Shown: positions 155-63,175 of the stretch, one piece after another
Position numbering within the stretch: position 1 is the stretch's first letter
How the letters are laid out: each line of letters starts with the position of its first letter
Assembly (NCBI RefSeq): GCF_007115095.1
Contig: NZ_SULH01000004.1
Span: 1-64,000 of the forward strand
Direction of reading: 5' to 3'
Source of the DNA: Levilactobacillus enshiensis
GTDB lineage: Bacteria > Bacillota > Bacilli > Lactobacillales > Lactobacillaceae
Length of the DNA: 64,000 nt
Made by a program: the position numbers and the translations under genes
Notes under the pieces: generated by a model
What the model saw: the letters and a program-made list of their open reading frames with translations, nothing else
Database searches by the model: none
What the model was told of the DNA's origin: nothing

Positions 155-995
155 GGCAATATTGACTAAACTCCCGCCTTACCGTTCGCCAAACTTGAAC
201 CGGAACGCGGTGGGGAGGACGGTCAAAGCCTGAGAAGCGGTCTTTGACCTCGCTTTGAGCCAGAAAGTCACTGTCTCAAAGACGCCATTTTTCAAGCAGA
301 TCACTTGAAAAATCCCACGGCTGGGTTCAAATTTGGCTCACTCACGGCTACCTAAAGTGATAACTATCACGCCAGTTACGGGCCAATAAAGTACCGACCA
401 TGCCTGTTCTGACAACAATGGGACTAAAACTAGGTAACTTGGTGGTCCCTTCGCCTTAACGGCCGGCAACTATGAGCTGGAGTGGTGCGAACACAACTCG
501 AAGCCTCAAAAACTACGAGTCTACAATCTTGGTTTTCTACTAAGCCAGTAAGAAGTGTACTTACTGACTAAGTAGAAAGACGCACCTGAGCTCATATCTG
601 TCGACCTCTCGGCTTACATTGTTTTCTCAGACAACTCTGAGAATAACCGTAACGGTCGTTATCCATTGAATCTCCAAATACCAGGTAGCTGTGGACTACA
701 GCCATTGTCGTGATAAAACACAATCAGCGCCGGAGGAGGCCAGGGATGGAGCCGGCCGTGAGAGTGGTGTTAGCTGGCGCTTTTTCAGCCAGCTTACAGC
801 ACGGGCGACTTTGGAGACACGTGGTCTTCGTGGCTTCAAATCGAGCGAGAAGACTGGTGTTCTGCCAGTCTGAAGCGTCCCCACAGCAGGTGGAATCCCT
901 GGCAGCCGGAGTGCGCCCAATTTAGGCTAATTTAACGGTACGACTGCCTACCGCGTTCCGGTTCAAGTTTGGTGAACGGTAAGGCGGCAGTTACC
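155..995. repeat. Large structured intergenic repeat with inverted ends
   Basis: This 840-base gene-free block is bounded by an imperfect inverted repeat: 166-207 (CGCCTTACCGTTCGCCAAAC and onward) reads in reverse complement at 943-990. Between the ends are several hairpins, the longest at 534-578, where TTTCTACT pairs with AGTAGAAA and AGTAAG with CTTACT across a seven-base loop. Segments resembling its parts recur near 6110-6210, 39530-39712, 47095-47235 and 51555-51600. Short open frames inside it overlap on both strands and lack ribosome sites. It may be a non-autonomous element or a structured RNA; no protein is encoded. Confidence 0.6.
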
Positions 996-5934: not shown

Positions 5935-6411
5935 CGTTCCGAACGTCTATGGCTGAAACGTGGAACCAAAGGCAGTCAACTCCGCTTAACCCCGATAGAC
6001 AAACAATCCAAGCCCGGAATTATTCGGCTATCGAAGCATCGTTCATGCTCATTGACTAACCGCATCTTGTCCCACTCTCTTGATTTGGTCTAAAACTAGG
6101 TGGTGGTCTGTTTTTTCGGTCGGCTTACAGGGTGTTCCCAGACAACGCCGAGACTGACAATAATTATCGTTATCAATTGGCTTCCAAACGATAGCTAATG
6201 CCCAAAAGTTACCCCGATTTTCGGGTCACAATTTACAATATTTACGACCACGTGTAAACGGAACACGACCTGTCGTAATGGCTGTCAGATTAAGGTTTCT
6301 TAACGTTTCTTAGAACTTGATAAGGTCTAAAAGTAAACGCTTTACAATGCATGACAAAGCAAGCATAATGGAGTCGTAAAGGCACGAAGAATCTACGGAG
6401 GTGTTTTTGAT
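5935..6411. repeat. Gene-free region with repeat modules before oleate hydratase
   Basis: TTGTCCCACTCT at 6066-6077 mirrors the AGAGTG...GGGACAA start of the preceding terminator, so 5898-6078 looks like one hairpin-ended element. The stretch 6110-6210 (CGGCTTACA, CCAGACAAC, ATCGTTATCAATTGGCTTCC) resembles 610-690 of the large left-hand repeat. A GTAAA-CGC-TTTAC dyad at 6333-6345 overlaps a TACAAT (6343-6348) and may be an operator for the next gene. No coding frame here has a ribosome site. Confidence 0.45.
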
Positions 6412-19069: not shown

Positions 19070-19581
19070 CTGCACTTTTTTGGGAGGCAACTAGCGGAAT
19101 CGCTTCATGATAGTTCGTTAGGATTAATCGTCGCCAGTAATTTCGACGTCTGCGGGGAGTATCTATAATCTGGGAAACGGTCCTCTGACTTTTAACAATT
19201 ATGAGTCGTCAAAGCATTGCTGAGATAACGATATCTGACTGTCATAATTGCTCACAGCCTAGGCAACTGTGAGTGAGTCGAATTGGGACCGGAATGCGGT
19301 GACGAAAAGGGCGCTAGAATTGGCCACAACATTCGGACAATTCTAGCGCCTAATTGATTAATGGTTAGAATCAAATGGTTCACGTAATGCCAATATCAGC
19401 CGGGAGGGCAGTCAAAATAGGCTCAGCCGTGGCATTGTCTTAGCTGAGTGGTCTGCTCAGGTTAGACAAAACCGAGTTTTGAGACCTGAACTTTGGGCTC
19501 AAAATCGTGTTCACAGCGTTCCAGCCTATTTTGACTGCCCGGTAAGGCGGTTGACAAGGACCAGATGAGATTTAACACGAG
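19070..19581. repeat. Gene-free region with two long inverted repeats
   Basis: GGCGCTAGAATTG (19310-19322) has its exact complement at 19338-19350. An 18-base arm, GGGCAGTCAAAATAGGCT (19406-19423), has its exact complement at 19523-19540 and encloses a 100-base segment with a smaller CTGAG/CTCAG pairing. No coding frame is seen. These look like palindromic intergenic elements; the first may serve as a weak terminator for the acetyltransferase on the minus strand. Confidence 0.55.
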
Positions 19582-39438: not shown

Positions 39439-39529
39439 TGGTAATAAAGAAAACATAATTAAATGACGACAGATATAACATGAGTCACAAGTTGTCGTGG
39501 AACGCTGGGTTAAGCCGCTAGTCGTAGGT

Positions 39530-39712
39530 AGTTAGGAACGGAACCCGGTGTCGGTGGTGTTGGCTGACGTTTTGAGTCAGCTTACAGCACGGGACGTTTT
39601 GGAAACTCGTGATTTCCGAGGTTCCAAAACGAGCTTCAAGACCGCTCCACAGGCTTGAAGCGGTCCCCACGGGGTGGAGTTTCTAACTACCGAAGACGGT
39701 GTTCAGGATAAC
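39530..39712. repeat. Structured intergenic repeat module
   Basis: This aligns with 735-920 of the left-hand repeat: shared blocks GGTGTT, CAGCTTACAGCACGGG, TTTGGA, and GTCCCCAC near the end. Its stems differ from the other copy but still pair: GCTGAC/GTCAGC here versus GCTGGC/GCCAGC there, and CTCG/CGAG versus CACG/CGTG. It lies directly behind opuCD. Confidence 0.65.
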
Positions 39713-47035: not shown

Positions 47036-47094
47036 ACAATCTAGTTCGTTAACAAAAGGTTGAAAGTTCCAAAATACGGCTCATGCCGGTTCTA

Positions 47095-47235
47095 CCAACA
47101 GCAGTGGCCTTAAAAGTAGACAACTTGGTGGTCTGGTCGCTTTACCGGCCAGATATGAGTTGGATCGGTACGGACACAACTTGAAGCCTCGTAAATCACG
47201 AGTCTACAAGCTTGGTTTTCTACTAAGATAACAAG
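47095..47235. repeat. Structured intergenic repeat module
   Basis: This aligns with 420-545 of the left-hand repeat through shared blocks AACTTGGTGGTC, ATGAG.TGGA, ACACAACT.GAAGCCTC, ACGAGTCTACAA and CTTGGTTTTCTACTAAG. CTGGTCG/CGGCCAG and CTCGT/ACGAG stems are present here. It sits just behind the DHA2 carrier gene. Confidence 0.65.
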
Positions 47236-47259
47236 GTTGGAATTTAAGACGGCCAAACG

Positions 47260-51366: not shown

Positions 51367-51554
51367 GATAAGAGTCCTCCTCATTGATTATTGTGAGGGC
51401 AACAGCCCCACAAAATACACACTGGATATCTCTATTAGTATAGCATGTTTACCCGGACTGTCAGGGTGGAAAGGCCTTCATCAATAACGTTTGGTTGGGC
51501 AACTAAAGATTGAAACCTGGAACTATAGTATTGGTGATCACAGGTACTGGGTGC

Positions 51555-51600
51555 GCAATACTGACTAAACTGCCGCCTTACCGTTCGCCAAATTTGAAGA
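51555..51600. repeat. Fragment of structured repeat end
   Basis: GCAATACTGACTAAACTGCC and the following CGCCTTACCGTTCGCCAAA match 154-194 of the large left-hand repeat (its inverted terminal arm) with few differences. Confidence 0.65.
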
Positions 51601-62888: not shown

Positions 62889-63175
62889 TTGACAAGTTTG
62901 CCGAAAAGAAGTACCTTAAGACTGTAATATGAAAGCGCAGTCATAGTGAATAGTAACTGGTTGCTTCATCCTAGAGAGCTAACGGTCGGTGGAAGTTAGT
63001 GGGAGTTGCCAGTGAATCCGCCACTTAGCGTTTGTTTCCGTTCGAAGGAGACACGGTGAGACGTTATACTCGCAGAGGACACAATCATTTTTGTGTCAAG
63101 TTGGGTGGTACCACGTTAATAAACTAACGTCCCATAACCTGGATTAACCGGGTTATGAGGCGTTTTTATTTTTTT
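62889..63175 (+). ncRNA. T-box riboswitch leader for serS
   Basis: A TTGACA -35 (62889-62894) with a poor TACCTT -10 (62912-62917) starts the leader. AGAGAGCTAAC near 62973 opens Stem I, and GAATCC at 63014-63019 is a candidate specifier bearing the Ser codon UCC (63017-63019). The T-box GGGTGGTACCACG (about 63103-63116) lies in an antiterminator: ACGTTA pairs with TAACGT. A competing terminator (CATAACC...GGTTATG, about 63131-63157, then T-rich) follows. Uncharged tRNA-Ser would stabilise readthrough into serS. The specifier position is tentative. Confidence 0.88.

Follow-up and report, generated by a model that had tools for sequence, protein, structure and literature searches.

An IS4-type family of miniature inverted-repeat elements in Lactobacillaceae carries covarying branched modules that perhaps fold as DNA rather than RNA

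The dispersed repeats in a stretch of Levilactobacillus DNA of 64,000 nucleotides (hereafter the window; positions 1-64000 of contig C34, in a host genome of 3.07 Mb and 57 contigs) are a family of miniature inverted-repeat transposable elements (MITEs) with IS4-type ends. With modest confidence, we read it as a Lactobacillaceae MITE that is mobilised in trans and whose branched modules have been kept by compensatory change and selected as folded DNA. Covariation is commonly taken as a sign of functional RNA. In the present family the covariation is very strong, but wobble pairs point to DNA or to both strands, so that the family puts an RNA reading to the test and serves as a warning for RNA discovery screens. 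Covarying modules that perhaps fold as DNA rather than RNA are unusual and testable; if true, they would amount to covariation-backed DNA secondary structure in a class of mobile element not thought to need any.

In the proposed mechanism, the MITE would be moved in trans, through 14-bp ends of the IS4 family, by the transposase of an insertion sequence (IS), as the ends common to both suggest. Insertion would create target duplications of 7-9 bp, visible in the better-preserved copies. The usual element has no gene and contains two homologous modules of approximately 170 nt in convergent orientation, each kept as a branched fold in which stem P1/P2 closes hairpins 1-3 and two mismatches are conserved. 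The folded DNA may take the form of a cruciform or, in single strands that arise during replication, of a hairpin, and it would be read by some protein. Folding might conceivably help the element to spread or to be tolerated rather than serve the host at each site. The more specific proposal, that the spread of an IS4 (DDE-type) MITE depends on a folded-DNA signal composed of two branched modules in convergent orientation, whose mismatches are recognised and which show Watson-Crick compensation across genera, we hold to be possible rather than probable.

Composition of the block at 155-995

The earlier note had described a gene-free block with inverted terminal arms at 155-995. Both traits were found: the arms (169-217 and 944-992) are 92% complementary over 49 nt, and the ORF list of the window, which comprises closed ORFs and excludes those running off the window's end, has none of at least 100 aa that touches positions 1-1035. 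The block was also rightly taken for a repeat with relatives, but it is not one unit. It is a composite of several copies of one folding module of approximately 170 nt, namely one module of type A, the pair C(+)/B(-) and, on the far side, the remnant of an A-type arm (Table 1). The predicted fold of the plus strand of the block reached -367 kcal/mol compared to -263 ± 9 kcal/mol for 20 shuffled sequences (z -12), and the minus strand gave a z of -17.7 against its shuffles. Around the C/B pair, no 14-bp element end was found near 351-450 or 908-995 when up to two mismatches were allowed. Just left of the block, at 32-96, lies a hairpin with 28-nt arms that are 82% complementary and a CCCCTTAAG / CTTAAGGGG core, which could be a terminator.

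Four partial relatives had been listed for the block (39530-39712, 47095-47235, 51555-51600 and 6110-6210), and all of them were recovered by blastn against the window. Matches of the block included 47071-47227 (E 1e-27) and 39554-39678 (E 2e-12).

Table 1. Modules, remnants and end sequences of the repeat family in the window
Feature	Position	Strand	Basis
Composite block: modules A(+), C(+), B(-) and A arm remnant	155..995	.	arm, blastn and profile matches
Left arm of the inverted pair of 49 nt, forming the 5' part of module A	169..217	+	arm complementarity
Module A, folding unit with three hairpins	176..350	+	nhmmer E 4e-41; consensus fold
Module C, folding unit without hairpin 1	451..612	+	nhmmer E 1e-44; consensus fold
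Module B, full unit in which stem P1/P2 bears hairpins 1-3; orientation opposite to A and C	737..907	-	R1 201 bits, E 2e-46; covariation
Second A-type arm remnant, right arm of inverted pair	944..992	-	complementarity; nhmmer E 5e-5 (944-985)
Partial relative of the stretch that follows module C (609-678)	6120..6188	+	blastn E 6e-7
Solitary A/C-type module, absent from the earlier list of relatives	19398..19549	-	nhmmer C E 8e-23
Solitary B-type module	39529..39691	-	R1 114 bits, E 1e-25
Terminal inverted repeat adjoining copy 47071-47238 on its left, differing from CTAAAGGTTGAAAG at one position	47053..47066	+	end-pattern scan
Truncated C-type module	47137..47238	+	nhmmer C E 1e-21
Possible terminal repeat, two mismatches; could be chance	51503..51516	+	pattern scan; mean of 0.37 expected in the window
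5' arm of A-type module, remnant	51555..51598	+	blastn E 6e-13

The modules covary as one branched fold

Modules A, C and B are homologous, each profile recovering the other two in profile searches. In the consensus fold on the module strand, an outer stem leads through an internal loop to a junction that bears hairpins 1 to 3, and type C modules lack hairpin 1. A covariance model was built from 48 B-type copies. In the 48-row B alignment, changes on both sides were found in 29 of 55 pairs, compared to 6.9 after column shuffling and 6-10 in slid structures. A larger alignment held 149 modules (148 distinct) of 155-185 nt, rows outside these lengths being left out; 9 came from the host genome or the window, 23 from genus-mates, 11 from other genera and 106 from named loci. 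Against a tree-based null, our own implementation modelled on R-scape, 17 of the 53 structure pairs were significant in this alignment, and no column pair outside the structure was. Double changes from one Watson-Crick pair to another on single branches numbered 309, in 42 of the 53 pairs, compared to 4-12 in slid structures, and several pairs show all four Watson-Crick types.

Two mismatches are conserved within this fold, a C.T in hairpin 2 (140 of 149 modules) and an A.A in hairpin 3 (133 of 149). The pairs that directly flank them vary little; one, for example, is G-C in 137 and A-T in 10 of the 149. At a third one-by-one site, A.C was found in 76 modules and a paired A-T in 64 of the 149. 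The compensatory stem changes claimed for the block are part of a family-wide pattern, and selection on the structure is supported, all 17 significant pairs lying within the fold. The covariance-model analysis that the earlier note had called for thus found covariation significantly above the tree-based null, rather than a lack of covariation or the remnants of a coding element.

Distribution of the family

The host genome contains at least 122 module matches with an E value of 0.001 or better among the best 150 of 851 candidates scored by the covariance model. In a sample of Lactobacillaceae, considering at most the best 18 candidates per genome, modules were found in at least 31 of 151 genomes and at least 9 of 40 genera, and no module match was found in the other 120 genomes; such searches can overlook weak or diverged copies. 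An order-wide sample gave modules in at least 8 of 246 genomes, all Lactobacillaceae, and a phylum-wide sample in at least 1 of 299, this being the host genome, so that no module was seen outside Lactobacillaceae in these two samples. Among the matches listed in a pattern scan of named genomes, most were from Levilactobacillus (L. andaensis, L. koreensis, L. tongjiangensis and others), and Lactiplantibacillus mudanjiangensis and Companilactobacillus nodensis were also present. Three other sources were considered and rejected: positions 388-952 had no blastn match in 72,556 plasmid records and positions 160-1000 none in 50,697 phage records (both at E 1e-5), and a B-type pattern had no exact match in viral contigs.

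Architecture and mobility of the element

Modules lying less than 1 kb apart were arranged convergently in 63 cases, divergently in one and on the same strand in 10. This count covered 226 modules at 128 loci, with a few places taken twice, and was drawn from the best 150 of 230 named-locus matches and 111 matches from 50 other sources. In a second count, with modules less than 700 nt apart and some places counted twice, there were 151 convergent, one divergent, and 14 and seven same-strand arrangements. Many copies are bounded by the 14-bp end CTAAAGGTTGAAAG and its complement. With at most one mismatch, this end occurs 66 times in the host genome compared to three times for the pattern read backwards, and related ends were found on elements of Lactiplantibacillus (L178) and of the genus g55 (L099, L101). 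Both ends, with up to four mismatches each, were located for 31 elements of 478-672 bp. No transposase was found next to the end sequences among 16 ORFs in 20 stretches of the host genome.

Perfect target duplications of 7, 8 and 9 bp flank five, two and one of these 31 elements, respectively, and in the remainder the duplications are imperfect or lost. Identity between the two flanks was highest at duplication lengths of 7 and 8 (0.47 and 0.43) compared to 0.25-0.36 at the other lengths from 4 to 14. The duplications became visible once the flanks were anchored on the 14-bp ends; a search for the longest shared word gave 9 bases or more in 8 of 63 pairs, with no clear overall excess compared to mismatched flanks. 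One clean empty site was identified, as the earlier note had proposed to look for: at the site occupied in locus L025, L. andaensis (L306) is uninterrupted and has a single copy of the target, with seven of eight letters alike. In L. koreensis (L307), that site is longer by about 100 bases. By eye, the genus-mates L308 and L310 carry family insertions elsewhere in the same intergenic gap. One gap struck at different positions in three species suggests that certain gaps are preferred targets. A second candidate empty site, that of L020 in L166, was rejected since the alignment, by eye, shows the remnant of a deleted element there, and the comparisons of L202 with L197 and of L047 with L242 gave no alignment across the junction.

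Some insertions are common to different species (for example L036/L038), and partial module remnants are common. The 60-base flanks of 12 chosen elements have 40% G+C compared to 49% for the loci. At L237 and L239, the distance between element end and the 3' end of a host gene is approximately 90-100 bases; these genes encode an FtsX-like permease and the alpha subunit of DNA polymerase III. A cargo gene beside the modules was considered and rejected: by eye, the 25 largest ORF clusters of 231 loci look ordinary, the largest being ABC-type ATPases (40 loci). The family thus shows terminal inverted repeats, target duplication, a short and noncoding body, ends in common with an autonomous element and an empty site. 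Of the identities that the earlier note had offered, a non-autonomous mobile element is the one supported by the common ends, the target duplications, the empty site and the existence of a partner IS bounded in the same way.

A partner insertion sequence of the IS4 family

The exact 14-mer was found in 16 of 152 Lactobacillaceae genomes. On contig C1 of genome G176, from genus g50, there are 11 facing 14-mer pairs, nine of them 1.55-1.57 kb apart, and genome G098 has three facing pairs. The typical partner is a 1.56-kb IS that occurs in relatives including L. koreensis and is bounded by the 14-bp ends of the MITE. Eight IS copies with both ends were inspected, six of 1.55-1.57 kb and two of 2.8-3.1 kb, and seven of the eight are flanked by duplications of 7-8 bp. 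The transposase, of 449-451 aa, matches the IS4-family model NF049925 with 483 and 501 bits (cut-off 250) and Pfam DDE_Tnp_1. It had a match in 9 of the 22 genomes searched and none in the other 13; the host genome gave no match, and its MITE copies are therefore probably stranded. In G176 there are 23 transposase matches, six of which form a full-length subgroup with about 49% identity.

The link between MITE and IS consists of the 14-bp ends. No module match was found inside nine IS loci even at E 10. Full-length IS copies are present in the genomes richest in the IS, G176, G098, G199 and G076, which had no module match in the family-wide search. Including these four, seven of the 16 genomes that carry the exact 14-mer had none among at most the best 18 candidates per genome. 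L. koreensis, which has an open full-length IS copy with perfect ends, is the only genome in which IS and modules were both seen intact. That the IS transposase mobilises the MITE in trans would be the natural reading of the identical ends. In genome G024, that of a close relative, five contigs (C8, C30, C39, C58 and C63) end 40-55 bases past a 14-bp end, a pattern that assembly breaks at a multi-copy IS with such ends would leave. Food bacteria that hold the IS and the elements together (L. koreensis) or apart provide a countable system for testing if folded DNA can be a requirement of a DDE-type transposon.

Relation to known repeats

Folded single-stranded DNA is the recognised form of integron attC sites and IS608-type hairpins, and this folded-DNA recognition resembles the role proposed here for the modules. 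RUP is a dispersed structured MITE-like repeat, and REPINs are dispersed pairs of inverted palindromic units. REPINs are linked with RAYT (PMC3116915), and REPs are given as 20-40 bp (PMC3733652). The present family differs from REPIN/RAYT in its branched modules of approximately 170 nt, its IS4-type ends and its target duplications, and its modules are not palindromes of 20-40 bp. Pneumococcal BOX and Coxiella QMITE2 are likewise dispersed structured MITE-like repeats in the available text of PMC10969869, where QMITE2 is given duplications of 7-9 bp and a core of 113-145 bp; on that text, both are set apart from the present MITE by size.

Bacterial MITEs, as described in the same part of PMC10969869, are likewise short, noncoding and intergenic, with terminal inverted repeats, target duplications, stable folds and IS-type ends. 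In contrast, the interior of the present element consists of two convergent homologous modules that covary strongly across genera without preferring wobble pairs. The available text discusses stem-loops as features of transcripts, and words beginning with covaria or cruciform do not occur in it. IS4-family insertion sequences (NF049925) have the identical 14-bp ends and duplications of 7-8 bp like the MITE; the MITE lacks their transposase gene, and the IS copies lack the module. Literature searches found no publication for Levilactobacillus with miniature inverted-repeat, and none on such a family, judging by title or start of abstract, for Lactobacillus miniature inverted-repeat transposable elements. 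MITEs are known; as far as these searches go, a MITE with a densely covarying interior without wobble preference is apparently undescribed.

Selection as folded DNA or as RNA

RNase P from 30 Lactobacillaceae loci (the best 30 of 101), processed like the modules, was used as an RNA control. In columns with a Watson-Crick consensus, the ratio of G.U to A.C was 122:256 in the modules compared to 150:12 in RNase P. Change events from Watson-Crick to G.T and to A.C numbered 84 and 156 in the modules compared to 69 and 11 in RNase P, which disfavours RNA of one strand. The wobble contrast with RNase P was found on the modelled strand (Fisher 5e-16) and on the other strand (2e-4). On the strand opposite to the modelled one, G.U was favoured 2:1, so the ratio is not 1, and on internal branches it was 57:25 compared to 41:6 in RNase P (p 0.03). 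Neither module strand behaves like the control. Because wobble is favoured on neither strand as it is in RNA, the selected form would be folded DNA, or both strands alike. As a test, the G.U:A.C ratio with an RNA of the same bacteria as control is cheap and reusable.

The main rival to folded DNA is RNA, above all on both strands. It would leave the mobile element as it is and have the fold selected as RNA, of one strand or both, such as a structure at the RNA end by which neighbouring transcripts are terminated, protected or processed; we judge it unlikely, although several observations suit it. A need for RNA on both strands would likewise abolish the wobble bias, the predicted folds are very stable on both strands, and convergent genes flank 26 of 57 elements compared to 78 of 342 other gaps (by mechanical ORFs), an enrichment that would suit a role at gene ends. 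The decay of dead copies also shifts the wobble ratio towards 1, and group consensus sequences, which remove private decay, gave 21 G.T, 14 A.C and 13 other mismatches in 672 pairs, a slight lean the opposite way, towards RNA, in a count that has no RNase P control. Against RNA, no Rfam 15 family matched the block, either at gathering scores over the window or at E 10 over 1-1100, where hits were only far below the cut-offs. A structured RNA family, one of the identities offered earlier, thus has the covariation on its side and is disfavoured by the lack of G.U preference and of an Rfam match. Both-strand predictions carry a pitfall that the present module family illustrates: according to PMC8040213, structured-RNA candidates appear palindromic when they are predicted on both strands, and REP sequences and terminators are known palindromic classes.

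The variants of single copies also bear on the RNA reading. Among 44 B copies of the host genome, the 110 paired columns have 50 private variants and the 60 unpaired columns 31, so that private changes are not kept out of stems, which speaks against RNA; shared variants numbered 27 in paired and 40 in unpaired columns (Fisher p 0.013 compared to private, a modest value from one genome). Thirteen of the 50 private stem variants are still Watson-Crick, more than pure decay would give. The pattern is consistent with selection acting while the element spreads and with decay once a copy has inserted. Because private changes hit stems and loops alike and shared ones avoid stems, folding may aid the spread or tolerance of the element rather than the host at each site.

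A mutational origin of the compensatory changes appears improbable. Template switching during replication would repair imperfect palindromes and alter their two arms jointly, giving Watson-Crick pairs without wobble bias, as observed, and the double changes on single branches are in keeping with this. However, it should erase the two conserved mismatches, which persist in hairpins that otherwise use all four Watson-Crick types. This argument is to be taken with caution, as the adjoining pairs vary little and the third one-by-one site is often paired. Double changes in neighbouring pairs numbered 25 in the modules compared to 14.3 expected, and 15 compared to 8.8 in RNase P, and thus cluster no more strongly than in that control. 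Least probable is that the modules are functional sites of the host, for a nucleoid, replication or recombination protein, that ride on the transposon: their number in the host genome and their spread over genera would suit this, but partial remnants are common, site occupancy differs among species and most of the sampled family genomes had no match. In the window itself, a T-box leader, an ordinary regulatory RNA, lies on the plus strand at 62931-63137 (109 bits compared to a gathering score of 93).
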